64,000 bases of DNA from Halomonas sp. GD1P12 (GTDB taxonomy: Bacteria; Pseudomonadota; Gammaproteobacteria; Pseudomonadales; Halomonadaceae). Below, in pieces: positions 31,649 to 64,000 of the stretch. The position numbers were made by a program, and so were the translations under genes. The stretch covers positions 3,715,311 to 3,779,310 of the forward strand of contig NZ_CP107007.1 in NCBI RefSeq assembly GCF_025725645.1, given 5' to 3'. Numbering within the stretch: the stretch's first letter is position 1; each line of letters opens with the position of its first letter. The notes under the pieces were generated by a model. It made no database searches. It was not told the origin of the DNA and saw nothing but the letters and a program-made list of their open reading frames with translations.

Positions 31649-33193
31649 TTACCAGCTCTGAGTCGCCTTGAACTGTTCGAGACCCGACTTCAAGCCGTTT
31701 TTGATCTCGTCGTTGTAGTCGCCGGTCTGGTTGATCTTGTCCATCAGATCAGCGTGCTCGGACTTCATGTAGTCGTGCAGGGCACGCTCGAAATCCAGCA
31801 CCTTGTCGACGCTGACATCATCCAGATGACCTTCGTTGGCGGCGTACAGGGTAAGCGCCATTTCAGCCACGGACATCGGCGAGTATTGATTTTGCTTCAT
31901 CAGCTCGGTGACGCGCTGACCGTGCTCGAGCTGCTTGCGCGTGGCTTCGTCCAGATCCGAGGCGAACTGCGAGAACGCCGCCAGCTCACGGTACTGGGCG
32001 AGTGCCAGACGCACGCTACCACCAAGCTTCTTGATGATCTTGGTCTGGGCCGAGCCACCAACACGCGATACCGAGAGACCGGCGTTGATCGCCGGGCGGA
32101 TGCCCGAGTTGAACAGGTTGGTCTCCAAAAAGATCTGACCGTCGGTGATCGAGATCACGTTGGTCGGAACGAACGCGGAGACGTCGCCGCCCTGGGTTTC
32201 GATGATCGGCAGTGCGGTCAAGGAACCGGTCTTGCCGGTTACTTCGCCGTTCGTGAATTTCTCCACGTAGTCGGCGTTGACGCGCGCGGCGCGCTCCAGA
32301 AGACGCGAGTGGAGGTAGAACACGTCACCCGGGTAAGCTTCACGGCCCGGCGGACGACGCAGCAAAAGCGATACCTGACGATACGCCACGGCCTGCTTGG
32401 AAAGATCGTCATAGACGATCAGCGCGTCTTCGCCGCGATCGCGGAAGTACTCGCCCATGGTGCAGCCGGAGTAGGCGGCGAGGAACTGCATCGGCGCCGG
32501 GTCGGCAGCGCCGGCCGCGACCACGATGGTGTGCTCCATCGCGCCGTGCTCTTCGAGCTTGCGTACCACGTTGGCGATGGTCGACTGCTTCTGACCGATC
32601 GCGACGTAGACACAGGTGACGCCCTTGCCTTTCTGGTTGATGATCGCGTCGATCGCGATCGCCGACTTACCGATCTGACGGTCGCCGATGATCAGCTCAC
32701 GCTGACCGCGACCGATCGGCACCATGGAGTCGATCGACTTCAGACCCGTCTGGATCGGCTCGTCGACGGACTGACGTGTGATGACGCCCGGCGCGACTTT
32801 CTCGACCGCGTCGGTCATCTTGGCGTCGATGTCGCCCTTGCCGTCGATGGGGTTACCGAGCGCGTCGACCACGCGGCCAACGAGTTCAGGGCCTACCGGC
32901 ACTTCGAGGATGCGACCGGTACACTTGGCGGTCATGCCCTCTTCGAGGAGCAGGTAATCGCCCAGTACGACGGCACCCACGGAGTCGCGCTCCAGGTTGA
33001 GTACCATGCCGAACACGGAGTTCGGAAATTCGATCATTTCACCAAACATCGCGTCTTCGAGGCCGTGAATTTTCACGATACCGTCGGAAACGGTGACGAT
33101 GGTGCCCTGATTACGGGCTTCGGATGCGACGTCAAGCTTCTCGATACGCTGCTTGATGATGTCGCTGATCTCGGAAGGATTCAGTTGCTGCAT
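31649..33193 (-). CDS. atpA: ATP synthase alpha subunit
   Basis: 514 residues, nucleotide-binding F1 subunit. The Walker A motif reads GDRQIGKS (residues 170-177) rather than the more common GDRQTGKT; it still fits GxxxxGK[ST]. The arginine-finger region [10 protein letters not shown] and [14 protein letters not shown] are conserved. The N-terminus [20 protein letters not shown] binds the delta subunit. Confidence 0.97.
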
Positions 33194-36090: not shown

Positions 36091-37020
36091 TTATTTGATG
36101 TGTCCGAGAATACCGTCGAGCTCTTCGAGGCTGGTGTAACGGATGGTGACCTTGCCCTTGCCGCGCTGACCGTGATCGATGGATACCGGCGCGCCAAGCA
36201 GCTCGCCGAGCTGAGTCTCGAGCCGCGTGACGTCCGCGGTCTTTTTCGAGCGTTTGGGCGCGGCCCTGGCGGCTTCGTCGCTGCCGAGCTTTTTGACCAG
36301 CGCTTCGGTGGCGCGCACGGTCAGGTCGTTATTGACCACTTCATGGGCAATGCGCCGCTGCTGGGCACTGGTGAGCGATAAAAGCGCGCGGGCGTGACCC
36401 ATGTCGAGATCACCGCGCTCCAGAAGCGTTTGCACCTCGTTGTCCAGACTCAAAAGCCGCAACAGGTTCGCCACCTGAGTACGCGACTTGCCGACCGCAT
36501 CGGCGATCTGCTGCTGGGTGAGTTCGAACTCGTCGCCCAGGCGCTTGAGCGCGATCGCCTCTTCCACCGCATTGAGGTTTTCACGCTGGATGTTCTCGAT
36601 CAAAGCGAGTGCCAGCGCGACTTCGTCGCTGACGTCACGAATGACCGCGGGGATGACGTCGAGCTCGGCGAGCTGGGCCGCGCGCCAGCGCCGCTCGCCG
36701 GCGATGATCTCGTAGCGGGACTGCCCGACCGGGCGTACCACGATCGGCTGCATCACGCCCTGGGCGCGGATCGAGTCAGCGAGCTCCTCGAGGGCTTCGG
36801 GCTGGATATCGCGGCGGGGCTGGTATTTACCGCGGCTCAGTTGACCAAGCGGCAAACGCTCGAGACGCTCGTTGTCGGTGGCCTCGACGACCACGCTCGA
36901 CGGCGCTGTATCGACGCTTTCAAACGTTTCCTCACTGGTGAGATCCAGACTGTCACGACGACGTGCGCCCGCTCCAATGAGGGCGTCCAGGCCACGTCCT
37001 AGCGCGCGTTTACGCGTCAT
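36091..37020 (-). CDS. parB: Chromosome-partitioning protein ParB
   Basis: 309 residues. ParB CTPase domain with LPLGQLSRGKYQPRR and the GERRWRAAQLAE (C-motif) segment, a central HTH (LTQQQIADAVGKSRTQVANLLRLL), and a C-terminal dimerisation domain ending IRYTSLEELDGILGHIK. Binds parS sites near the origin and spreads as a CTP clamp. AAGGGGA precedes the ATG. 43 bases after parA. I found no convincing parS sequence in the window. Confidence 0.95.
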   Translation of the reverse strand: MTRKRALGRGLDALIGAGARRRDSLDLTSEETFESVDTAPSSVVVEATDNERLERLPLGQLSRGKYQPRRDIQPEALEELADSIRAQGVMQPIVVRPVGQSRYEIIAGERRWRAAQLAELDVIPAVIRDVSDEVALALALIENIQRENLNAVEEAIALKRLGDEFELTQQQIADAVGKSRTQVANLLRLLSLDNEVQTLLERGDLDMGHARALLSLTSAQQRRIAHEVVNNDLTVRATEALVKKLGSDEAARAAPKRSKKTADVTRLETQLGELLGAPVSIDHGQRGKGKVTIRYTSLEELDGILGHIK

Positions 37021-37063: not shown

Positions 37064-37831
37064 CTAAAGCGCCAGCTTGCGAATCATCTCTTTGGCGAGC
37101 ACGCGATACGCCTGGCTGCCCCGCGAAAAGCGTGCGTAGTGGGTGACCGGCAGGCCGTGGCTCGGCGCTTCGGCCACCTTCACGTTGCGCGGAATGGTGG
37201 TCTTCAAAAGCGCGTCGCCGAAAAAGTCGCGCAGCTGCTTGTCCACTTCGCGGGTCAGGCTCGTGCGCTTATCGTACATGGTGCGCAATATACCGGAAAT
37301 CGCGAGCTCCGGATTGACGCTCTCCTTGATCTGCTCGACGGTATCCAGAAGCGCCGACAGGCCTTCCAACGCGTAGAACTCGCACTGCAGCGGAATCAGC
37401 ACGCCGTGAGCGGCGGTCAGTGCGTTGACGGTCAGCATGTTGAGCGACGGCGGGCAGTCGATCAGCACCACGTCGTAGTTCTCGGCCACCGTGCTGAGCG
37501 CGGTGGAGAGTCGGCTCTGGCGCTCATCGCGATCCAGCAGTTCGACCTCCGCGGCGGTCAGATCACCATTACCCGGCAGCACGTCGAAGTTGACCGGCAG
37601 ATTCCTGATGATCGCCTCGTGAGCGCTGGCCTCACCGAGCAGGACATCCAGCACGCTCTTGTCCAGATCGTACTTGTCGATGCCGCTGCCCATGCTGGCG
37701 TGGCCCTGGGGGTCGAGATCCACCAGCAGCACGCGGCGGTCGAGACTCGCCAGGCTCGCCGCGAGATTGACGGCCGAGGTGGATTTGCCCACGCCGCCTT
37801 TTTGGTTGGTCAGGGCAATGATCTGGCTCAC
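37064..37831 (-). CDS. parA: Chromosome-partitioning ATPase ParA/Soj
   Basis: 255 residues. Deviant Walker A KGGVGKST (about 11-18), DLDPQGHAS and DCPPSLN motifs. It moves the ParB-bound origin region and may influence DnaA. It starts at a GTG whose first base is the last base of the rsmG stop (TAGTG), with AAGGAG seven bases upstream, so translation is coupled. Confidence 0.95.
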   Translation of the reverse strand: MSQIIALTNQKGGVGKSTSAVNLAASLASLDRRVLLVDLDPQGHASMGSGIDKYDLDKSVLDVLLGEASAHEAIIRNLPVNFDVLPGNGDLTAAEVELLDRDERQSRLSTALSTVAENYDVVLIDCPPSLNMLTVNALTAAHGVLIPLQCEFYALEGLSALLDTVEQIKESVNPELAISGILRTMYDKRTSLTREVDKQLRDFFGDALLKTTIPRNVKVAEAPSHGLPVTHYARFSRGSQAYRVLAKEMIRKLAL

Positions 37832-38496
37832 TACAAGGCTCCTTCAGGGGTCAAAATCAACAGCTGCCGTATTGCCGTCTCATAGGGAATGGGCAGCCGA
37901 TGCCGCGCCGTCAGCACGATATCGGCGGGAAGTGCACTGAGTTCATCGTCGGCGCCGGGGCCTTTCATGGCCAGCCACTGCCCGCTGGGCTCCACCAGCG
38001 TTCGGGTCAGGTCGATAAAGTCGACCAGGCTTGCAAACGCGCGGGAGACGACCTGATCGAAGGTGCGCTCGCCAAAGGCCTCGACCCGTACCTGGGTCGG
38101 GGTCGCGTTGTCGATCGAAAGCTCCATGATCGCCTGGCGTTGAAAGCGCACTTTCTTGCCGTTGCTGTCGACCAGCGTGACCTGAACGTCGGGCTTCAAA
38201 ATGGCGATGACCAGGCCTGGAAGGCCTGGGCCTGCGCCAACGTCGAGCAGCGTGTCGCCGTGCACGAAAGGTGCAATGGCGGCGCTATCCAGCACGTGGC
38301 GCGAGACCATCTCGACCGGGTCGCGCACTGCGGTGAGGTTATAAGCCCGGTTCCACTTGTGCAACAGCGCCACCAGGGCCAGAAGCCGCTCGCGCTGGGA
38401 AGCGCTGACCTCGAGGCCGAGGGTCTCGAGGCCGCTGTCCAGCCGGGTGGCAACGTCAGCGGGCAGGTCGTTCAAAAGCGGGGACAGCGAACTCAT
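37831..38496 (-). CDS. rsmG: 16S rRNA (guanine(527)-N7)-methyltransferase
   Basis: 221 residues. AdoMet motif [18 protein letters not shown] and the [19 protein letters not shown] block are diagnostic of RsmG/GidB. It methylates G527 of 16S rRNA. Its ATG overlaps the mnmG stop by four bases (ATGA). Confidence 0.96.
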
Positions 38497-40397
38497 CCGT
38501 TCGCCACCTCGGCGCTGCCAACCAGGCGGCGCTTTTTCAGATGGATCAAAAGAATCGAGACCGCCGCTGGCGTCACGCCGGAGATACGCGCTGCGTGGGC
38601 CAGGGTTTCCGGGCGGGCGTCCATGAGCTTCTGGCGAATTTCGTTGGAGAGGCCCTCGACCTTCTGATAGTCGAGCTCGGCCGGCAGCGGCGTATTTTCG
38701 TGGCGCTTGAGCTTGTCGATCTCGTCCTGCTGACGATCGATATAGCCCTGGTACTTGGCGTGGATCTGGACCTGCTCGGCCACGGCGCCGCTTTGCACTG
38801 CCTCGCTTTCAAGCCCGGGAAGTGTTGCGATATCGGCGTAGGTCAGCTCCGGGCGTTTCAGAAGATCCGCCAGCGAGTACTCGCGATTGAGCGGGTGGCC
38901 GGTTTTCTCGGCGACTTTCTCGGCGGCGGCGGTGTTGGGCTGTACCCATACCGACTTGAGCCGTGCGCTTTCGCGCTCGATCGACTCACGCTTTTCGCTG
39001 AACGCCTGAAAGCGAGCATCGTCGACCAGGCCAAGCTCGCGGCCCTTCTCGGTCAGGCGCAAATCCGCGTTGTCTTCACGCAGCATCAGACGATACTCCG
39101 CGCGTGAAGTGAACATGCGGTAGGGCTCCTTGGTGCCCATGGTGATCAGGTCATCGACCAGCACGCCCAGATAGGCCTCATCGCGGCGCGGATGCCAGGA
39201 CTCGAGTGATTTCGCCCGGCGGGCAGCGTTGAGCCCGGCCAAAAGCCCCTGAGCACCGGCCTCTTCGTACCCAGTGGTACCGTTGATTTGCCCGGCGAAA
39301 AACAGGTTGTGGATAAATTTTGTCTCCAGCGAGTGCCTGAGATCCCGCGGGTCGAAGAAATCGTACTCGATGGCGTAGCCCGGGCGCGTGATATGGGCGT
39401 TTTCCAGCCCCTTCATCGAGCGCACCACCTGAAGCTGCACATCGAAGGGCAGCGAGGTGGAAATGCCGTTCGGGTAGAGCTCATGGGTGTCCAACCCTTC
39501 GGGCTCGATGAAGACCTGATGGCTCGACTTGTCCGCGAAACGGTGAACCTTGTCTTCGATCGACGGGCAGTAGCGCGGGCCGGTGCTTTCGATCACGCCG
39601 GAGTACATCGGCGAGCGGTCCAGATTCGCCATGATGATGTCGTGAGCGCGCTGGTTGGTGTGCGCTATATGACAGCTCACCTGGCGCGGGTGCATGTCGC
39701 GCGAGCCCAGATAGGACATGACCGGCGTTGGCGTGTCGCCGGGCTGCTCCTCCAGCTGGCTAAAGTCGACACTTCTAGCGTCGATGCGCGGCGGCGTGCC
39801 GGTTTTCAGCCGATCGACGCGAAACGGCAGCGCGCGCAGGCGCTCGGCCAGCGCGTTGGAAGGCGGGTCACCCGCACGGCCGCCGCGGCTGGTATCGAGG
39901 CCGATGTGAATCACGCCGCCCAGAAATGTACCGGTCGAGAGCACGACGGTTTCACTCATAAAGCGAATGCCGGTTTCGGTGACCACGCCGCGCACAATAT
40001 CGTTATCCACAACCAGGTCGCCCGCGGCCTGCTGAAAGATCGTCAAGTTCGGCTGGTTTTCGAGCATGCCGCGAATGGCGGCCTTGTAGCGTACCCGGTC
40101 GGCTTGAGCGCGCGTGGCGCGTACCGCCGGCCCCTTGCGGGCATTCAACACGCGAAACTGAATACCACCCAGGTCAGTGGCAAGCCCCATGGCGCCGCCC
40201 AATGCATCGATTTCCTTGACCAGGTGGCTCTTGCCGATACCGCCAATGGCGGGATTACACGACATTTGGCCTAGGGTTTCGATGTTGTGAGTGAGCAGCA
40301 GGGTTTGACAACCCATACGAGCAGAGGCCAACGCGGCTTCGGTTCCCGCATGGCCACCGCCGATGACAATCACGTCAAAGCGGTCGGGGTAATTCAA
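38493..40397 (-). CDS. mnmG: tRNA uridine-5-carboxymethylaminomethyl synthase MnmG
   Basis: 634 residues. With MnmE it installs cmnm5 at wobble U34. FAD motif [19 protein letters not shown] at the N-terminus, the [20 protein letters not shown] block, and [25 protein letters not shown] motif. The start is an unusual TTG at 40397, supported by GAGGTG upstream and by the match to the family N-terminus. First gene of mnmG-rsmG-parA-parB. Two perfect DnaA boxes lie inside the gene (39308-39316 and 40003-40011). Confidence 0.95.
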
Positions 40398-40473
40398 TTA
40401 GCACCTCAACTTGGCCCTTTCAAAAAGCGCCGATCGATCGTTTGAGAACGAGGCTCGCCTCGATAAGCCCGCC

Positions 40474-40502
40474 AGTATAAACCTCCTGTGAATAACAGTC
40501 AG
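40474..40502 (-). promoter_or_regulatory. Predicted mnmG operon promoter with a DnaA box in its spacer
   Basis: On the minus strand, CTGACT (40502-40497) and TATACT (40479-40474) are 17 bases apart, each matching the sigma-70 consensus at four or five of six positions. The spacer contains a perfect DnaA box TTATTCACA (40495-40487). Transcription would start near 40467. DnaA bound there should block RNA polymerase, which would couple this operon to replication initiation. Confidence 0.55.
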
Positions 40503-40882
40503 GTTTTTCCACACCTTGGTTCGCCAGTACTGATCTACTAATAACAAAATAAAAAATATAAAGAGAAGTTCTGTTGATGTTGTAACTACTGGTGTGGATA
40601 AAATCTGTGCATAAGGCATTTAAAATGATATTTTTCAAACTTTTATATTGTTGACCATTCGGTGATTAAAGGGCGTAGTTGCTGCGTAGAAGCGGTGTCG
40701 GGGCTGTGGATCGAATGGGTATTTATGCACAGCGCCAAAAAAACACGGCTTATCCACCGATGCATACCGACGCTGTGCGCTCGATTGTGAACATTCGACC
40801 TGAACCTTGATAAATGGCTGGAAAGCGTACGTGGCGGGCATGGTGGGCGGACATGAAAAAAATCGAAAAAATGTTGTCCACA
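40487..40882. other. DnaA-box cluster, candidate replication origin (oriC-like)
   Basis: This 577-base gene-free stretch (40398-40974) beside mnmG holds four perfect DnaA boxes (TTATNCACA): 40487-40495, 40593-40601 and 40606-40614 on the minus strand, 40723-40731 on the plus strand. One-mismatch boxes lie at 40505-40513, 40750-40758 and 40874-40882, and a weaker one at 40705-40713. An AT-rich block (about 40535-40680) could be the unwinding element. E. coli oriC also adjoins mnmG. However, in Pseudomonas-type chromosomes the active origin lies between rpmH and dnaA, just beyond the right edge here, so this may be a secondary or ancestral origin or a titration site. Confidence 0.65.
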
Positions 40883-40885
40883 GGC

Positions 40886-40916
40886 AAAAAAAAGAGCCTG
40901 TCGCAAGGACAGGCTC
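40886..40916 (-). terminator. Terminator of the amino-acid ABC transporter operon
   Basis: Nine-base perfect stem GAGCCTGTC/GACAGGCTC with a five-base loop and eight T residues following on the minus strand, 58 bases after the ATPase gene stop. It also shields the DnaA-box region from read-through. Confidence 0.92.
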
Positions 40917-40974
40917 GGAAATGGCAGGTTTTGATGAAGGGGGCTGAGCGTATAGCGCGTGCGATATGCGCGTT

Positions 40975-41745
40975 TCAGTGCTTGAGTACGCGGGCCAAAA
41001 ACGATTGGGTACGTTCGTGTTGGGGCGTATCGAACAGCTGCTCCGGCGGGCCCTCCTCGGTGATCTCTCCCTTGTGAATGAAGATGACGCGATCGGCGAC
41101 TTCGCGGGCAAAGCCCATCTCGTGGGTGACGATCACCATGGTCATGCCCTCTCTGGCAAGCTCACGCATGGCGTCGAGCACCTCGCCGATCATCTCCGGG
41201 TCGAGCGCCGACGTGGGCTCGTCGAACAGCATCAGCCGGGGTTCCATGGCCAGCGCCCGGGCCAGCGCCACACGCTGCTGTTGGCCGCCGGAGAGCTGGC
41301 TGGGGTACTTGTTCGCCTGGTCGGCGATTCCCACTCGGTCGAGCAGGCGCTTGGCGGTTTGGGTCGCCTGATCGCGGCGCTGGCCGCGTACCTTGATCGG
41401 CGCCAGGGTGACGTTGTCGATCACGCTCAAATGCGGAAAGAGGTTGAACTGCTGAAACACCATGCCGACTTCGGTGCGGATGGTTTGAAGCGCTTTTGAG
41501 CTCTTTCCATAGGGCTTTAGCGTGTTGTTATCCACCTCGAGGGTGCCGGACTGAAACTCCTCGAGCCCGTTGATGCAGCGGATCAGAGTGGATTTTCCCG
41601 AACCGCTTGCGCCGATTACCACGACGACCTCGCCGGAGGTGATCTCAAGGTCGATATTGTTGAGCACGTGCAGGGCGCCAAAGTGCTTGTTGAGCTTTTC
41701 CATGCGCACGATGGGAGCGGGATGTGAAGAGTGGTTCGCTGTCAT
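40975..41745 (-). CDS. Polar amino acid ABC transporter, ATP-binding protein (GlnQ-like)
   Basis: 256 residues. Walker [11 protein letters not shown]-loop, signature [15 protein letters not shown], Walker [15 protein letters not shown] and the switch His in VTHEMGFA. It belongs to the GlnQ/ArtP/HisP group of amino-acid importers. ATG at 41745 is preceded by AAGGAG, and the gene starts just before the end of the permease gene (41756). Last gene of a three-gene unit. Confidence 0.93.
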
Positions 41746-41755
41746 GGCGCGCTCC

Positions 41756-42427
41756 TTATTGACCGGCAAGGTTCGAACGCTCGACCAGACGCAGCACCAG
41801 GGAGAGCGTCCAGGTGATGGCCAGATACAAAAGGGCCACCATGAAGTAGACCTCGAGCGCGGTGAAGGTGGTGGCGATGTAGATCTGCCCCTGACGTACC
41901 AGCTCGCCGACGCCGATCACCGAGAACAGTGAGGTGTCCTTGATACTGATGATCGCCTGGTTACCCAGCGGCGGCACCATGCGCCGAAGCGCCTGAGGCC
42001 AGATCACGTAGCGAAACGACTGGGCGCGAGAAAGCCCGAGCGAAAGAGAGGCCTCGCGCTGACCGCGTTCGATGGACTGCACGCCGCCGCGCACGATTTC
42101 CGAAATGTAGGCGCCGGAGTTCACCGCGATAGCGGCAATACCGGCGACCAGCGCGTTGATCGGTCCGCCCAGAAGCTGCGGCAGTCCGTAGAAGATGAAC
42201 AGTACCTGCACCAGAATCGGCGTGCCGCGAAAGACTTCGATGTAGATCGTCGCGACCCAGCGCATCCAGGCCACGGGGCTGATGCGCAGAAGCCCGAAGA
42301 AGATGCCGATGAAAAACCCGATGGCCAGGCCCCCGAAGGAGATGGCCAGCGTCCACGGAATACCGGGTAACAGGTGGGGGATCGAGGCAAACGCCGCCGA
42401 CCAGTCGAACTCAAAGGTAACGTCCAC
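41756..42427 (-). CDS. Polar amino acid ABC transporter, permease
   Basis: 223 residues, one HisMQ-type permease with about five membrane helices and the EAA loop ([24 protein letters not shown]). Only one permease gene is present, so it would act as a homodimer. The GTG start at 42427 follows GGAG. It is preceded by an intercistronic palindrome after the binding-protein gene. Confidence 0.92.
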
Positions 42428-50129: not shown

Positions 50130-50840
50130 TTAGCGAGCCTGCTTTACAACGTTGTTGTTGTAGCTGCCGTAAGTTTCGATAGTGGACTGATGAGCATTTT
50201 GAGTGTACAGAGCGCTTTGGCTAACTTGCTGGTAGTTGCCATAGCCGTTGGTCAGGATGTAAGAGTCGTGACGGTCGCCGCTCTGCATAACGTTATATTC
50301 GTTGTCGTTACCGCCCTGGTTAACGATAACGCTTTTCAGCTCGTTACCAGATTGAGTTACATCAGCAATATTACGGTCGCCACGCAGGGTAACGGTGCTG
50401 TCGTTCATATCGCCGTTTTGATTGAGCATGGTCAGGTTATCGCTGCCGTAAGACTGCGCCACTGACTTGTTATCAAGGCCGTCTTGCATGATTTCAGCTG
50501 CGTTACCGTTACCGTCCTGAAGAACGTAGCTATCGTTGCCGTTACCTACTTGGTTCACAGTTGTATCGTTGCGGCTGCCCTGCTGTTGAATGCTGGAAAC
50601 GTTCGCTGCCTCGAACGGAGTCGGAGCTTGGCCAATAACGTCGTCTTGAACGACAGTAGCTGCGTTATCATTACCACGTTCCTGGCGGATACGTGACTCT
50701 TGGTTACCGTACTGCGTAACGTTGGTGCTGTGTTCGTTGCCGTATTGGATAATGTAGGAATCGCTGGCGACTTGAGCAGAAGCAGCGGTGCTCAGTGCAA
50801 GAGCGATACCAGCGGCGATAGTGGTGATTTGAGTTTTCAT
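50130..50840 (-). CDS. csgA: Curlin major subunit, CsgA-like
   Basis: 236 residues, longer than E. coli CsgA (151). Signal peptide cut after residue 22 (AASA). The mature protein is low in aromatic and aliphatic residues and rich in Gly, Asn, Gln, Ser and Thr, in imperfect curlin repeats of about 22 residues with the spaced Gln/Gly/Asn pattern (for example NQVGNGNDSYVLQDGNGNAA). About eight to nine repeats are visible. Secreted through CsgG and polymerised as functional amyloid. AAAGGGG lies before the ATG. 59 bases after csgB. Confidence 0.88.
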   Translation of the reverse strand: MKTQITTIAAGIALALSTAASAQVASDSYIIQYGNEHSTNVTQYGNQESRIRQERGNDNAATVVQDDVIGQAPTPFEAANVSSIQQQGSRNDTTVNQVGNGNDSYVLQDGNGNAAEIMQDGLDNKSVAQSYGSDNLTMLNQNGDMNDSTVTLRGDRNIADVTQSGNELKSVIVNQGGNDNEYNVMQSGDRHDSYILTNGYGNYQQVSQSALYTQNAHQSTIETYGSYNNNVVKQAR

Positions 50841-50899
50841 GTAGTAATCCCCTTTATGATGACGACTTGCTTTGGTGGTTACTGAGCAAGGATTTTTGC

Positions 50900-51418
50900 T
50901 CAGTAAGTTACGACGGTGACTGGTCGCGCATTGCCCGAGAACGCTTGTTGCTCGACGTTGATGCTGCGGTAGCCACTCCCCGATTGTGAAATCGTGATAT
51001 TGCTTTGCTGACCCGTTTGAGTAACGAAGGCTTCCGCTCCTTGAGGGCCGTTGTCCTGAAGAATCGAAACGCTGTGCTCGTTACCTTTTTGAGAAACCTG
51101 GCTGGTATTGTTGCCACCGATTTGTTCGATTGACGCCGCATTGGCGTTACCGACTTGGCGGATACTCGAAAAATTACCTTGTTGGTATTGGGCCGAGTAG
51201 GATTGAGCGACGCTGGTCCGGTTGTCGTTACCGTTTTGGTAAATGACGCTGTAATTACCGGGGCCTAACTGCTTTGATCCGCTATAAACATACTGAGCGA
51301 TACGGTTGTCTTGGCCGGCGTGGGCAGCGGATGAAAACGTCATCGTTAGGGCAATTAGTGCCAGCGTCGACTTGACCACTGCCGCTCCTAAAAATGAAAA
51401 CGCCTGATTGATAGCCAT
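50900..51418 (-). CDS. csgB: Curlin nucleator, CsgB-like
   Basis: 172 residues. Signal peptide of about 34 residues ending AAHA. Curlin-type repeats follow (YSVIYQNGNDNRTSVAQSY, SSIRQVGNANAASIEQIG, SQVSQKGNEHSVSILQDNG), then a C-terminal tail with Tyr, Arg and Val as in CsgB, which anchors to the surface and seeds CsgA. I chose ATG 51418, seven bases after AAAGGG; ATG 51424 and a TTG at 51448 are possible. csgA versus csgB identity is inferred from order and tail. Confidence 0.82.
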   Translation of the reverse strand: MAINQAFSFLGAAVVKSTLALIALTMTFSSAAHAGQDNRIAQYVYSGSKQLGPGNYSVIYQNGNDNRTSVAQSYSAQYQQGNFSSIRQVGNANAASIEQIGGNNTSQVSQKGNEHSVSILQDNGPQGAEAFVTQTGQQSNITISQSGSGYRSINVEQQAFSGNARPVTVVTY

Positions 51419-51590
51419 CCTCATACCCTTTGAAAGTTTTTGTATCAAATTGTATTCACGGCTTGAGTTTGGCGTATCTGTAGAATTGCGCTATCAGCAA
51501 TTCTCCTGGACGTGGGATCATTTATTTGATTATTTTAAATCTCTCAGGTATTAGTTTTTTGGTATATCTGTAAGTTTTTGTTTTTAATGA
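51419..51590 (-). promoter_or_regulatory. csgBA upstream region with an 8-7-8 inverted repeat
   Basis: The 302 bases between csgG and csgB contain no gene. The part next to csgB is AT-rich and holds a perfect inverted repeat, AGAATTGC and GCAATTCT with a 7-base spacer (51482-51504), 64-86 bases upstream of the csgB ATG. This is a plausible regulator site for csgBA. I see no clear -35/-10 pair. Confidence 0.45.
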
Positions 51591-51627
51591 AATAAAAAAG
51601 CGGTGCCGCATAATTTTGGCACCGCTT
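51591..51627 (-). terminator. Terminator of csgDEFG
   Basis: Ten-base perfect stem AAGCGGTGCC/GGCACCGCTT with a T-rich tail on the minus strand, 94 bases after the csgG stop. It separates csgDEFG from csgBA. Confidence 0.88.
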
Positions 51628-51720
51628 CTCGTAGATTTTCTGGTAATTATAGGGTTGTATCACTTCATCTTTATTAGATGAAGCTCAAGCATGAACACCA
51701 GAAACACTGCTCACGTATAC

Positions 51721-52551
51721 TTACAATTCTGGAATAGGCGCATTCAGATAGTCGGCGAGTACCGAACCCTGAATATTGCTGCCACTGGCCAGATTCCACA
51801 GGTTGTTTTCCACCCCACGAGCGATCAGGTGTATGACTGCGGACTCCACCGCCGACATGACCGCCATCTGTACCGGCTCGTTGGTCGTGATGCCCGCTTC
51901 GGCTTCCAGCAGGCGACGGAAGTCGATAAAGCGATACACCCCGGCGCGCAGCTCTTTCGAGTAGATGGTTTTGGTGGTCGTTACGTTGGCGAGTATCTCG
52001 CCGGTGGAAATCTCCACGGCGCGCAGGTTGACCGTGACCTGGTCGACCTGGTACTGGCCCGAGGCGCCAATGCCGAAGTATTCAGCACCCGCGCCGCCGG
52101 TGCGTACGTTGGACTCATACGCAATGATACCGCCTTCGAGCATGACCGACGCCGCGCGCAGTGATGGCAGCGTATCGGGCTGGCCGAAGCGCTCGAACTC
52201 AGCGCGGATGATGCGTCGCTCGGTCAGAAGGTTCTGAAGCCCGACCCGCTCCAGCGGAATGAACCAGCCGGAATCTGCAAGCGCCCCGGTCAGCATCGCC
52301 GCTGCTCCTTGCGTTACGGCGGTGGAGAAGGTGCTGGCCGGGGCCGGGCGGTACTGGCCGGTCTGATCGCGGAAGTCGTAGACCGAGACGAAGATCTTGC
52401 CCGCCGGCGGCGGCAGCGACACGAGATCCTGGTAGGTAGCCCCGCGCGGCATGAGCGTGGCTTGAGCGCCTTCAAGATTTTCCGAGTTGGCGACCATACC
52501 GGCACAGCCGCTGAGAAGCGTGGCCAGCATGAGTGAAGCGATGATTTTCAT
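51721..52551 (-). CDS. csgG: Curli secretion channel CsgG
   Basis: 276 residues (E. coli 277). Lipobox LLSGC with Cys16. CsgG domain: VYDFRDQTGQYRP, FSTAVTQGAAAMLTGALADS, WFIPLERVGLQNLLTERRIIR and MLEGGIIAYESNVRTGGAG are near the E. coli sequence. It forms a nonameric outer-membrane pore for curlins. ATG 52551 follows GGGGA. 78 bases after csgF. Confidence 0.95.
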   Translation of the reverse strand: MKIIASLMLATLLSGCAGMVANSENLEGAQATLMPRGATYQDLVSLPPPAGKIFVSVYDFRDQTGQYRPAPASTFSTAVTQGAAAMLTGALADSGWFIPLERVGLQNLLTERRIIRAEFERFGQPDTLPSLRAASVMLEGGIIAYESNVRTGGAGAEYFGIGASGQYQVDQVTVNLRAVEISTGEILANVTTTKTIYSKELRAGVYRFIDFRRLLEAEAGITTNEPVQMAVMSAVESAVIHLIARGVENNLWNLASGSNIQGSVLADYLNAPIPEL

Positions 52552-52629
52552 TATGATCCCCTGACGACACAAATAAGCGTTATGCGGCGTTTTGCCGGTT
52601 AGGTATTGGTAAACGTGAGCGCTGTTTTA

Positions 52630-53052
52630 TTAAGGATTAAAGGCGCCGCCTACGCTGATATTGGTTATATCGCCGGTCAGCTTGTCTACCACGCGCACGA
52701 CGAGCTCGCCGCCATCGTCGCTCACCACCACGTTGAACTCGCCGCTGTCGAAAGAGCCCTGATCGACATTGCCTGCACCGACATCGGATATCAGCTGCGA
52801 GATGAGTCGGCTTTCCAGACTTTGAACGAGTCGATCAGTAGAAGAGAGCCGCTCGAAGCCTCGTGCGTTAGGATCGGTAGTGGTGTCCTGGGCCTGCGCC
52901 TTACCCAGCAGATAGCTCCCCATGAAGGGGTCGCCACCAAACGATGGATTCAAGGGGCGATAGACCAGATCCCCCGCAATGGCTTGTGCTCCGCTTGTGA
53001 GTGCCAGCGCTGCGACGGTACCCAGCATGAAACTGCGTTGTTTGACTTTCAT
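52630..53052 (-). CDS. csgF: Curli assembly factor CsgF
   Basis: 140 residues (E. coli 138). Signal peptide about 1-26, then the pore-inserting segment DLVYRPLNPSFGGDPFMGSY, followed by LLGKAQAQ; the C-terminal part ends NISVGGAFNP. CsgF plugs into CsgG and anchors CsgB. Its ATG overlaps the csgE stop by one base, so expression is coupled. Confidence 0.95.
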   Translation of the reverse strand: MKVKQRSFMLGTVAALALTSGAQAIAGDLVYRPLNPSFGGDPFMGSYLLGKAQAQDTTTDPNARGFERLSSTDRLVQSLESRLISQLISDVGAGNVDQGSFDSGEFNVVVSDDGGELVVRVVDKLTGDITNISVGGAFNP

Positions 53053-53600
53053 TATCGTAACTCCTCGCTTCCCAGGTCTTTGTCCGACGTTAGCGCCGTT
53101 GCCAACTGTTCCTTCAGCAGCGCTTCTTGAACTACTTGTACCGCCTCATTGGCGGCTTCATCCGCCTGATTGATTCTTGGCGAAAGCTGCGTGCGGAAAT
53201 ACATTTGATTGCCCTGCATGATCCAGAGTTGGCTTCCCCAACGGGCGTCCGGGCGCTCCTGAATCGTGATCGTGGCGTTATTGATCAGCGGGCTATCCAT
53301 GGCACGTTGACTGAATGCGCGGTAGAACGAACGACCGGCCATGGTAATGGTGCGGTCAATCATGACCCCGGTCAGCTCACTGCTGCCGTAGCCGCGCGGC
53401 TCGATTTCCGCACCGTCCGGCCCGGAGAGGCGGTTGATCGCATCCACCGCTTCCTGCTCGTTTTCCGGCAGGGAATCGCTTGGCGAGGCCGGCTGATTGG
53501 GAGACACGGGCTGGCCGGGAAGCTCTTCGCTGGCGTGCACCGACAGAGCCAACGTCAGTAGACAGGCAGCGAGCGGTAAATGAAAACGATACGTGACCAT
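53052..53600 (-). CDS. csgE: Curli secretion chaperone CsgE
   Basis: 182 residues, longer than E. coli CsgE (129) because of a Pro/Ser-rich insertion after the signal peptide (about 24-55). The conserved part is GVMIDRTITMAGRSFYRAFS, ITIQERPDARWGSQLWI and the C-terminal EALLKEQLATALTSDKDL. It caps CsgG from the periplasm and selects substrates. Confidence 0.94.
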   Translation of the reverse strand: MVTYRFHLPLAACLLTLALSVHASEELPGQPVSPNQPASPSDSLPENEQEAVDAINRLSGPDGAEIEPRGYGSSELTGVMIDRTITMAGRSFYRAFSQRAMDSPLINNATITIQERPDARWGSQLWIMQGNQMYFRTQLSPRINQADEAANEAVQVVQEALLKEQLATALTSDKDLGSEELR

Positions 53601-60001: not shown

Positions 60002-61372
60002 CTACTTCCCGATACAGAAGCTGCCAAAAATCTCACCCAGCAGGTCGTCGGCGCTGAACTCGCCGGTGATCTCGCCAAGCGCGGCCTGGGCGTCGCGCAG
60101 GTCTTCGGCGAGCAGCTCGCCGGCGCTTGGGCCTTCGAGCTGAGCGCGGCCGGCCTCCAGCGCGGCCAGCGCCCTATCCAGCGCGTCCAGGTGGCGCCGG
60201 CGCGCCGAGAAACGTCCCTCGGTGGTGGCGGCAAAGCCCATCACGCTCTTCAAATGCTCTTTCAAACTGTCCACACCCGCCCCGGTCTTCGCCGACAGGC
60301 GCAGCGTCGGGGTGGCTGTGGATAAATCAATACCCGCGGCTTCTTCGCTTTCGTCGATCTTGTTGCGCACCAGCGTCAGCCGCGATCGATCCGGCAGGCG
60401 CTCGACGAACTCCGGCCAGATCGCCATCGGGTCGGTGGCCTCGGTGGTCGCGGCGTCCACCATCAGCAGCACCCGATCGGCTTTCTCGATTTCCGCCCAG
60501 GCGCGGGCCACGCCGATCTTCTCTACCGCGTCCGGCGTGTCCCTGAGCCCGGCGGTGTCGATGACGTGCAGCGGCATGCCGTCGATATGGATATGCTCGC
60601 GCAGCACATCGCGGGTGGTGCCGGCGATGTCGGTGACGATCGCTGTCTCCTGCTCGGTCAGCGCGTTCAAAAGGCTCGACTTACCGGCGTTGGGACGCCC
60701 GGCGATCACCACGCTCATGCCTTCGCGCAACAGCGCCCCCTGGCCCGCGGCGCGGCGTACCGACTCCAGCTCCTCGCGTACGCCCGCAAGCCGTGTAGCC
60801 ACGTGCCCGTCGGCGAGAAAGTCGATCTCTTCTTCGGGGAAGTCGATGGCGGCCTCGACATAGACGCGCAGCGCAATCAGCCGCTCGACAAGCGTCGACA
60901 CCCGATTCGAGAACTCGCCCTGCAGCGAGCGCACGGCGTTTTCGGCGGCCGAGCGCGAGGTGGCGTCGATCAGATCGGCGATCGCCTCGGCCTGGGCGAG
61001 ATCCAGCTTGTCGTTGAGAAAGGCGCGTTCGGAGAACTCGCCGGGCCGGGCGAGACGCGCGCCGAGCGCAACGCAGCGCTCGAGCAGCATGTCCATGATG
61101 ATCGGCCCGCCATGGCCCTGAAGCTCGAGCACGTCTTCACCGGTAAAGGAGTTCGGGCCCTCAAAGCGCAGCGCGATGCCTTCGTCGATGATGCCGTGCT
61201 CGCCGTGAAACGGCCCGTAGTGGGCGTAGCGGGCTGGCGGGCATCGCCCCAGCAGGGCAGTGGCGATATCGCCGCAGGCGGGCCCGGAGACCCGAATGAT
61301 ACCGACACCGCCGCGCCCGGGCGGGGTGGCTAGTGCGGCGATCGTGTCTTGGGTGTAGAGTGTTGAAGCCAT
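60002..61372 (-). CDS. mnmE: tRNA modification GTPase MnmE
   Basis: 456 residues (E. coli 454). Partner of MnmG for U34 modification. N-terminal folate-binding domain ([22 protein letters not shown]), a G domain inserted in the helical domain ([29 protein letters not shown]), and the C-terminal CIGK with the catalytic Cys. ATG 61372 has AAGAGA upstream. A perfect DnaA box lies inside at 60317-60325. Confidence 0.96.
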
Positions 61373-61420
61373 GGCGCGTCTCTTGAATGAATGGCGATAG
61401 TGTGAATTCGCGGCGCCCAA

Positions 61421-61453
61421 AACGCCAGACCCCCGCACGGGGCGGGGGTCTGG
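61421..61453 (-). terminator. Hairpin between yidC and mnmE
   Basis: Twelve-base perfect stem CCAGACCCCCGC/GCGGGGGTCTGG with CG and then TTTT on the minus strand, 22 bases after the yidC stop. Probably a terminator or attenuator, making mnmE partly independent of rpmH-rnpA-yidC. Confidence 0.75.
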
Positions 61454-61474
61454 TAAGTCGAGCAAGGGGAGCGA

Positions 61475-63160
61475 TTACTTGGTTCGCATCCCTTTACCAA
61501 CGCTTGGGTCGTTCTCGATGCGCTTGGTGATGAAGTACTGCTGCGCCACCGAGATGATGTTGTTGACCACCCAGTAGATGACCAGACCCGCCGGGAACCA
61601 CAGGAAGAAGAAGGTGAAGATGATCGGCAACAGCCGCATGATCTTCGCCTGCATCGGATCGGGAGGTGTCGGGTTGAGCATCTGCTGCACGAACATCGAC
61701 ACACCCATCAGAATCGGCAGGATGAAGTAGGGGTCCTTCACCGAGAGATCCTGAATCCAGAAGATGAACGGCGCGTGGCGAAGCTCCACGGACTCCAGAA
61801 GCATCCAGTACAGTGCGATGAACACCGGCATCTGTACCACGATCGGAAGACAGCCGCCGAGCGGGTTGATCTTCTCTTTCTGGTAGAACTTCATCATCTC
61901 CTGAGACATCTTCTGGCGATCGTCGCCGTAGGTCTCTTTAAGACGCTGCATCTCCGGGCCGAGCTTGCGCATCCGCGCCATCGACTTGTAAGCCTTGGCG
62001 GACAGCGGGAAGAGTACGGCCTTGACCAGCACGGTCAGCAGCACGATCGACCAGCCCCAGTTGCCGACGATGTTCTGGATATGATCCAAAAGCCAGAACA
62101 GCGGATTGGCGATGAACCAGAGCCAGCCGTAATCCACGGTCAACTGAAGGTTGGGGGCGACCTGTTCCAGATAGTCCTGCACCTTGGGGCCCATGTAGAG
62201 CGTGGCACCCAGAGTGGCTTCGCCATCGGCCGCGACGCTGCTGGTCGGGCCGGCAAAGGCGACCACGTTGCGATCGCGCGCGTCGGTGGTGACATAAAAA
62301 AGGTTTTGCTCGTTCTGCTTCGGCGCCCAGGCGGAAACGAAGTAGTGCTGGATGATGGCGATCCAGCCGCCTTCGGCTTCTTGATTCTGGAAATTACGAT
62401 TTTGAATATCTTCGAAATCGATTTTTTCGTAGCGCGTGTCTGGCGTGGAGTACGCCGCGCCCATGTAGGAGTTCATGCCCAGCGTCACGCCGCTGGAGGG
62501 GTCGGGACTGTTATCGCGAGCGAGCTGACCGATGAAGCGGGCGCTGACCGGTGCATCGGTGTTGTTCGCCACGAAGTAGTTGACGTCGACCGCGTAGTCG
62601 CCGCGCTCGAAGGTCAGCCGCTTGGTGACTTCGACACCGTTGACGTCGGCGGTCAGGTCGACGTTGAGCGTCTGCTCGTCGTTGCCCAGGCGATACTCGG
62701 TGCGCTCCGGCGTAAAGGCGATACGGCTGGCCTGACCATCGAGCTGAATGCCCGAGCGTGCGACATAGCTTCGCGTGGCGTTGTCCGAGAGCAGCACGTA
62801 GTTGCGTTCGGAATCCAGCGTCATTTCGTGCTGGGGCAGGGCGGCAAAGACGATATCACCGCCGTAAGGGTCGATGCGCACGTCCAGCACGTCGGTGGTA
62901 ACGGCGATGAAATCGCGGCTGGCAGCATCGCTTGACGACTCCGCCGGTAGCCCTTCGTCGGCGCTGCCTTGCGGGGCACCGCTGCTGGGTACGGTCAAGT
63001 TGTCGCGGCCCGCGCCGTCACTGGCCGAGTTGTTTTCGCGCTGGGTGATTTCCGGCGTCGATTCGAAGCTGGTTTGCCCGTAGTCCTGATTCCACTGGAT
63101 CACCAGTAGATAGGCCAGTATGGCCAGTGGAATCAGCAATAAAAGTCGTTTTACGTCCAT
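61475..63160 (-). CDS. yidC: Membrane protein insertase YidC
   Basis: 561 residues, five-helix Gram-negative type. N-terminal TM (MDVKRLLLLIPLAILAYLLV), a large periplasmic domain (about 45-345), and the conserved core (about 365-550) with KMSQEMMKFYQKEKINPLGG, LPIVVQMPVFIALYWMLLESV and the positively charged C-terminal tail. Acts alone or with SecYEG. The ribosome site is poor. Confidence 0.96.
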   Translation of the reverse strand: MDVKRLLLLIPLAILAYLLVIQWNQDYGQTSFESTPEITQRENNSASDGAGRDNLTVPSSGAPQGSADEGLPAESSSDAASRDFIAVTTDVLDVRIDPYGGDIVFAALPQHEMTLDSERNYVLLSDNATRSYVARSGIQLDGQASRIAFTPERTEYRLGNDEQTLNVDLTADVNGVEVTKRLTFERGDYAVDVNYFVANNTDAPVSARFIGQLARDNSPDPSSGVTLGMNSYMGAAYSTPDTRYEKIDFEDIQNRNFQNQEAEGGWIAIIQHYFVSAWAPKQNEQNLFYVTTDARDRNVVAFAGPTSSVAADGEATLGATLYMGPKVQDYLEQVAPNLQLTVDYGWLWFIANPLFWLLDHIQNIVGNWGWSIVLLTVLVKAVLFPLSAKAYKSMARMRKLGPEMQRLKETYGDDRQKMSQEMMKFYQKEKINPLGGCLPIVVQMPVFIALYWMLLESVELRHAPFIFWIQDLSVKDPYFILPILMGVSMFVQQMLNPTPPDPMQAKIMRLLPIIFTFFFLWFPAGLVIYWVVNNIISVAQQYFITKRIENDPSVGKGMRTK

Positions 63161-63275: not shown

Positions 63276-63683
63276 TCAAGCGCCATGCGTAGCGTTTTCA
63301 AGCGGGGAAGGCGGTGTGGCGGCCGTTGCCTCTCGGGCGAGTCGTTTCCACATGCCGTGTAGCTGGCGGGCAAGAGTGTCATTATCGATATCCTGTACGC
63401 CACGCTTAGCCAATACCACGATGTCCATCGAGGGAAGGCGGTGCTGGCGAAGTCGAATGGATTCTCTAACAAGACGCTTGAAGCGGTTACGATCGACGGC
63501 GAGCTTGACGTTCTTCTTACTGACCACAAAACCAACGCGAGGATGACCTCGAGGCGAAAAGCGCGCGAGCGCCATCATGCCTTTGCCGTGGACCTTGAGG
63601 TCTGCCTGCTCGAATACGTGGCTGAAATCCCCGGCATTCAGTAAACGTAAATCCCGGGGAAAGCCTTGATGCGACACACGCAA
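63276..63683 (-). CDS. rnpA: Ribonuclease P protein component
   Basis: 135 residues. Basic protein subunit of RNase P. PRVGFVVSKKNVKLAVDRNR followed by FKRLVRESIR is the RNR motif region. The start is taken as TTG at 63683, seven bases after rpmH; a GTG two codons downstream (63677) is equally possible, as no clear ribosome site separates them. Confidence 0.93.
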   Translation of the reverse strand: MRVSHQGFPRDLRLLNAGDFSHVFEQADLKVHGKGMMALARFSPRGHPRVGFVVSKKNVKLAVDRNRFKRLVRESIRLRQHRLPSMDIVVLAKRGVQDIDNDTLARQLHGMWKRLAREATAATPPSPLENATHGA

Positions 63684-63690
63684 TCTGAAA

Positions 63691-63825
63691 TCAGGCGCTC
63701 AGACGCTTGCGGCCCTTGGCGCGACGGCGATTGATAACGGCACGGCCGTTTTTGGTTGCCATACGAGCACGGAAGCCATGCGCGCGCTTGCGCTTGAGAA
63801 CGCTGGGTTGAAAAGTGCGTTTCAT
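63691..63825 (-). CDS. rpmH: 50S ribosomal protein L34
   Basis: 44 residues, highly basic: [20 protein letters not shown], followed by [20 protein letters not shown] and RLSA. A near-universal sequence next to dnaA and oriC in gammaproteobacteria. First gene of rpmH-rnpA-yidC; dnaA is expected to lie divergent just beyond the right edge. Confidence 0.98.
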
Positions 63826-63920
63826 AACTCGTTATTCCCACGTGGTTTAGGACGAAAGTGAATTCCAAACGACCCGGTCCAGTGAGCAACTAGCCGGGGA
63901 GATCCGATTCAAGACCGGAA

Positions 63921-63949
63921 ATTGTAGAGACTTCGCGCCTCCGGTGCAA
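63921..63949 (-). promoter_or_regulatory. Sigma-70 promoter of rpmH-rnpA
   Basis: On the minus strand TTGCAC (63949-63944) and TACAAT (63926-63921) lie 17 bases apart, each differing from consensus at one or two positions. Transcription would start near 63914, leaving a leader of about 90 bases before rpmH. Confidence 0.7.
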
Positions 63950-64000
63950 TTTTTCTGCGTACAAAAAGCGCTAAAAACCTCCTAACGCCTCGCAACGTGT

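Follow-up and report, generated by a model that had tools for sequence, protein, structure and literature searches.

A DnaA-box cluster upstream of mnmG is the probable chromosomal origin of Halomonas sp. GD1P12

At which of two places does replication of the Halomonas sp. GD1P12 chromosome start? The window analysed here is the last 64 kb of a closed, single-contig genome of 3,779,310 bp (3.78 Mb), and it carries a cluster of DnaA boxes in the gap upstream of mnmG (gidA). A first-pass annotation of the window likened this placement to that of E. coli oriC and proposed that the lineage may keep two DnaA-binding loci of origin character, the flagged one possibly being a second, cryptic or titrating site. 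Sequence comparison of both loci within this genome and across its relatives indicates that the gap next to mnmG is very probably the active chromosomal oriC, in an E. coli-like placement.

The gap between the 5' end of mnmG (40397) and the end of a glnQ-like gene (40975) is 577 bp long and holds four perfect copies of TTATNCACA and three one-mismatch boxes, which together span 396 bp (40487-40882; Table 1). Its 60-bp GC minimum is 0.23. The seven boxes within 400 AT-rich bases reported at first pass were all recovered at their positions, and they are far above chance: none of 2000 dinucleotide shuffles of the gap reached four perfect boxes (largest 2) or seven boxes in total (largest 5), the shuffled averages being 0.03 perfect and 0.60 one-mismatch boxes. 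The cluster is also the top-scoring 500-bp cluster over 384 contiguous kb (score 11), followed by one between rpmH and dnaA (10) and a third (5), and the best score in 20 sampled 20-kb stretches elsewhere in the genome is 3. The third cluster, about 71 kb left of mnmG (L098:9329-9632, window -30671 to -30368, genome ~3.6846 Mb), contains one perfect box and is either a titration site or due to chance. A mechanical ORF of 158 aa (40635-41111, minus strand) enters the gap, but it overlaps the glnQ-like gene and is absent from the choices of a codon-usage gene caller, so the gap is still taken to be gene-free. A search of the whole 64-kb window against Rfam at gathering thresholds gave no match, and BLAST of positions 40300-41000 against plasmid records returned two records, matching the mnmG end only.

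Table 1. Features of the mnmG and rpmH-dnaA regions (window coordinates)
Feature	Position	Strand	Basis or remark
parB-like partition protein	36091..37020	-	TIGR00180, over cut-off
parA-like partition ATPase	37064..37831	-	best family NF041546, below curated cut-off; named from context
rsmG	37831..38496	-	TIGR00138
mnmG (gidA)	38493..40397	-	TIGR00136
Proposed active oriC, DnaA-box cluster in intergenic gap mnmG / glnQ-like gene	40398..40974	.	boxes, skew switch
DnaA box, perfect, TTATTCACA	40487..40495	-	box scan
DnaA box, one-mismatch, TTTTCCACA	40505..40513	+	box scan; similar place in congeners
AT-rich stretch, GC 0.23, candidate DNA unwinding element	40526..40585	.	composition and alignment; putative unwinding
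DnaA box, perfect, TTATCCACA	40593..40601	-	box scan
DnaA box, perfect, TTATGCACA	40606..40614	-	box scan and alignment; opposite presumed enteric R1
DnaA box, perfect, TTATGCACA	40723..40731	+	box scan and alignment; opposite presumed enteric R2, 117 bp from 40606
DnaA box, one-mismatch, TTATCCACC	40750..40758	+	box scan
DnaA box, one-mismatch, TTGTCCACA	40874..40882	+	box scan
glnQ-like amino-acid ABC transporter ATPase	40975..41769	-	best family NF007027, below curated cut-off
mnmE (trmE)	60002..61465	-	just left of dnaA
yidC	61475..63160	-	just left of dnaA
rnpA	63276..63683	-	just left of dnaA
rpmH	63691..63825	-	read by eye
rpmH-dnaA gap, left part, second DnaA-box cluster	63826..64000	.	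continues into genome C1:1-356

Family matches bear out the neighbours named at first pass, namely mnmG, rsmG and the ParA- and ParB-like genes, and glnQ-, glnP- and glnH-like genes lie on the far side of the gap. The mnmG gene matches those of named Halomonas and Billgrantia contigs at 85-89%. Immediately left of dnaA stand mnmE, yidC, rnpA and rpmH, the last about 23 kb from the cluster, as had been stated; the dnaA start codon (genome C1:357) is located just past the window, 24 kb right of mnmG. In named Pseudomonas loci the row mnmG-mnmE-yidC-rnpA-rpmH-dnaA occupies only about 5-9 kb, whereas here its ends are 24 kb apart, and therefore the row has been split between mnmG and mnmE. Since this old origin gene cluster is split, GC skew is able to tell the two candidate origins apart. 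A low-GC patch between mnmG and mnmE harbors curli-like genes (50130-53600; csgB, csgA and csgE matches, below curated cut-offs).

A box count in the rpmH-dnaA gap, suggested by the first-pass annotation, gives three perfect and four one-mismatch boxes in 527 bp, with a core as AT-rich as that on the mnmG side. The notion of two loci with origin-like anatomy is borne out by this second, nearly equal cluster. Both loci share a 26-column block (40874-40899 and L083:264-288) around TTGTCCACAGGC, with an A-run and GAGCC. Their stringent local alignment scores 35, a value reached in 0 of 500 shuffles (reverse strand 25, reached in 26 of 500), and permissive alignment gives 410 forward (2 of 300 shuffles as high) and 367 reverse (4 of 300). 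Since the shared boxes could account for most of this similarity, we do not claim that the loci arose by duplication of one origin.

With an origin at dnaA, the 24-kb interval between the loci would belong to the left arm and its skew would be negative, and with an origin at mnmG it would be positive. The interval has a skew of +0.031, compared with -0.011 for 40 kb on its left side and +0.018 for the 20 kb that run right from contig base 1. The cumulative skew minimum over 384 kb falls at window position 32,072, 8 kb left of the cluster, which counts against an mnmG origin, and the switch is estimated at 34 kb by a model with one change, fitted to 1-kb blocks; these estimates, 6-8 kb left of the cluster, come with a 95% bootstrap range of 24-44 kb that takes in the mnmG cluster and leaves out dnaA. 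Under this model the log-likelihood peaks at 1204.4, with values of 1202.2 for a switch at mnmG and 1189.1 for one at dnaA. Skew sampling at the terminus locates the turn only to 1.82-1.90 Mb, a resolution that does not distinguish origins 24 kb from each other. What skew records is an average over the long term and no measurement of firing.

The same layout was followed in 20 of the 36 listed relatives of the same genus, analysed around both loci (G009 without 15.5 of the 44.3 kb of its interval), with longer flanks for 10 of the 13 single-contig ones. Interval skew is positive in all 20, from +0.005 to +0.048, and the left flank is negative in 19. The exception, G024 (+0.016), is the nearest relative by mnmG, and its 10 kb left of mnmG are weakly positive; this counts against an mnmG origin, as does the lowest interval value, that of G012. 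In the 10 congeners with both flanks the cumulative minimum always lies between -1.6 and +2.3 kb from mnmG, with dnaA 22-26 kb away, and the likelihood favours mnmG over dnaA by 6.1-24.5. The first-pass annotation had named a switch at rpmH-dnaA as the finding that would speak against its reading, and the outcome is the opposite; skew switches at mnmG both here and in the congeners, and the view of the flagged locus as the second, cryptic or titrating one finds no support.

Gene strand was controlled for in 11 genomes (our own and 10 congeners) by means of four-fold degenerate sites, split by the strand of the gene, and of intergenic bases. Mean skews in the left arm, the interval and the right arm are -0.111, 0.040 and 0.007 for plus-strand genes, 0.026, 0.201 and 0.153 for minus-strand genes, and -0.052, 0.066 and 0.061 for intergenic bases. 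The interval behaves as the dnaA-side arm in all three classes, and its share of the left-to-right shift is 1.29 (bootstrap 1.10-1.51), 1.38 (1.13-1.69) and 1.05 (0.82-1.37), respectively. With shares of 1.05-1.38, nearly all copies of the interval were replicated from the mnmG side over the time in which the skew was built. These 11 genomes share orthologous genes and descent, so that they provide the record of one lineage and not 11 independent ones. Gene calls trained on this window were sparse in some congeners, and calling with self-training on each stretch left the conclusion unchanged.

It could be argued that both loci fire, mnmG being the main origin and rpmH-dnaA a regular or conditional second one. 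Both clusters have been retained in all 21 genus genomes, and an excerpt of PMC12000880 describes rnhAB mutants of E. coli in which oriC gives way to an initiation zone next to dnaA, whose induction by UV is dnaA-dependent. However, shares of this size leave no visible long-term contribution of forks running from dnaA to mnmG, and we consider dual firing very unlikely, with the proviso that rare or conditional firing at dnaA would leave no skew trace. Judged exceedingly improbable is a main origin at rpmH-dnaA, as in Pseudomonas, with the mnmG cluster as its remnant. This reading draws on the well-equipped rpmH-dnaA gap, on the position of the P. putida and P. aeruginosa origins beside dnaA (excerpts of PMC3056050, PMC3642087 and PMC5109545), and on other families of the order that are dnaA-side by skew. 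It gives the wrong sign for the interval here and in 20 of 20 congeners, also after splitting by strand, and it places the switch outside the bootstrap range.

The origin proposed at mnmG can further be compared with that of enteric bacteria. All 21 genus genomes (our own and 20 others) have boxes with at most one mismatch in comparable positions upstream of mnmG, and all have a minus-plus pair of boxes 117 bp apart (here 40606 and 40723). A perfect box is lacking on the mnmG side in four of the 21 (G009, G023, G027 and G029), and at least one is present on the dnaA side in every genome, both of which count against an mnmG origin; mean box scores over the 21 are 11.3 on the mnmG side, taken over 700 bp, and 8.1 on the dnaA side, taken over 600 bp. 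The 900 bp upstream of mnmG (720 bp for one locus) contain one or more perfect boxes in 62 of 80 loci; Halomonas and Billgrantia L005-L009 lack perfect boxes and carry six to eight one-mismatch boxes instead. In an alignment with the regions upstream of mnmG of Kosakonia, Vibrio and Shewanella, the boxes at 40606 and 40723 correspond to the enteric ones that we take to be R1 and R2, and, as in enteric oriC, the AT-rich stretch is found between the R1-like boxes and mnmG.

The E. coli-like placement put forward at first pass holds, then, in its adjacency to mnmG and in boxes that can be aligned with enteric oriC. As in E. coli, the site is directly upstream of mnmG and dnaA is tens of kb off with a box cluster of its own, the oriC-dnaA distance in E. 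coli being about 42 kb according to an excerpt of PMC12000880. The two differ in the R1-R2 spacing, which is 117 bp here and in L004, L010, Pseudomonas L012, L021 and L040, and 106 bp in enteric L065, L075, L077 and L078 and in Vibrio L047, L051 and L057. Moreover, parAB stands next to rsmG here, and a glnQ-like gene takes the place of mioC, presumably the E. coli neighbour on the far side of oriC. SeqA (PF03925) and the D12-type methylase family that includes Dam (PF02086) had no match in our genome, in contrast to an E. coli control in which both were found, and the gap contains four GATC sites. Sequestration by Dam and SeqA is a trait of E. coli and not a general feature of oriC.

A datA-like titration site, which has an IHF site, alters the timing of initiation without origin activity. 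A role of the mnmG cluster in DnaA titration or regulation (datA-like, DARS-like or a control element of mnmG) in place of origin function is judged extremely unlikely, for although a dense box array alone is no proof of origin function and DnaA is also a transcription factor (excerpt of PMC8203912), such a role leaves unexplained the skew switch, the AT-rich core beside the R1-like boxes and the alignment with enteric oriC.

From the layout of the mnmG gap we infer a conventional course of initiation. DnaA, bound to the arrayed boxes, would open the AT-rich DNA between mnmG and the R1-like boxes (about 40526-40585), and a pair of forks would then depart from the gap. The rpmH-dnaA cluster, 24 kb off, would not be the main start; it is probably a regulator of the dnaA promoter, a relic origin, or both, and has most likely been retained for promoter control. 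Self-control of the E. coli type is the simplest reading, by analogy with the dnaA promoter of that species, whose DnaA boxes are separate from oriC (excerpts of PMC5835720 and PMC12000880). It may also be a relic or conditional origin. What it shares with a Pseudomonas-type oriC are the box cluster and AT-rich core between rpmH and dnaA, where open DNA has been mapped in P. aeruginosa (excerpt of PMC5109545), and what differs is the skew switch, located here at mnmG. Two candidate loci on one chromosome also recall the two putative P. aeruginosa origins, autonomously replicating elements described by Yee and Smith 1990 and Jiang et al. 2006 (as cited in an excerpt of PMC4403523).

Four perfect parS sites lie within 5 kb on the dnaA side (L083:3483-8177, genome C1), 27-32 kb from the proposed oriC. 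The consensus used in the scan is the one we take to be that of parS, and no further site with up to two mismatches was found elsewhere in the 384 kb searched. Their position was counted against an mnmG origin, yet it is compatible with either origin.

The probable origin of the Halomonas-like group is hereby placed at mnmG. Among the matches listed from open-licence literature, which leaves DoriC aside, none gave the placement of a Halomonas origin. Nine of the 14 single-contig genomes of the group, our own included, are numbered from dnaA, and an origin at mnmG would bear on gene-dosage analyses and on origin plasmids. The separation of oriC from dnaA is an old question, which marker frequency in a few strains could address.

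All 126 genomes examined from the order gave a match to mnmG and to the C-terminal domain of DnaA (the latter only weakly in G066). Thirty-four genomes were picked by eye in which one contig carries mnmG and dnaA at a distance of about 8-40 kb, and 31 of them, with our own, make up the 32 analysed; G161 (~10 kb apart) and the closed G094, G119, G140 and G145 are outside this survey, and the 3.1-kb pieces of G063 and G071 were unused. Interval skew is mnmG-side in 16 of the 32 and negative, that is dnaA-side or neither, in the other 16, two of which are near-neutral (G149 -0.0004, G095 -0.009). The own family, f1, is mnmG-side in the four genera tested, as are f7 (2/2), f23 (3/3) and f26 (3/3, G162 weakly), and f16 and f28, with one genome each, have positive interval skew. 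Skew is negative throughout in f8, f20, f33, f35 and f36. In f27 (G095, G143 and G120; L214, L240-L243) the mnmG cluster is gone (scores 1, 2 and 1), the dnaA-side cluster is strong (9-11) and interval skew is negative in 3/3, one of them neutral. Two rearranged genomes outside the 32, G041 and G054, are dnaA-side. Skew signs carry less weight for intervals of about 10 kb, whose genes are mostly on the minus strand, and the three f20 genomes checked, G156 and G102 have positive intergenic skew against negative totals.

In family f34, G125 is strongly dnaA-side (-0.090; box scores of 13 and 12 for its two clusters), unlike the mnmG-side G100 and G148 (L244-L247, L226), and strand-split and intergenic sites concur with the skew side of all three, so that the side of the origin has apparently switched inside this family. 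Judging by the survey, origin use of the E. coli type and of the Pseudomonas type seems to alternate within one order. It is a doubtful extension that two origin-competent loci, mnmG and rpmH-dnaA, have existed since an early ancestor of the order, that the firing one switched and neither moved, and that the silent one, still rich in boxes, may serve as a conditional backup. Among 43 named loci with dnaA in reach, the 17 of Pseudomonas all have clusters at both places (mnmG 7-10, dnaA 6-15). Box strength at mnmG seems only loosely linked with origin side: the Spearman correlation is 0.37 (p 0.04) over 32 genomes and 0.43 (p 0.14) over 13 family means, and 0 of 7 genomes with an mnmG score of 3 or less are mnmG-side against 16 of 25 above 3 (Fisher p 0.007), a cut chosen post hoc and a test that ignores relatedness. 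In G043 (L212) strong clusters at dnaA (12) and mnmG (11) lie 14 kb apart with the skew minimum between them, so that either a switch in the recent past or use of both loci may be considered for this genome.
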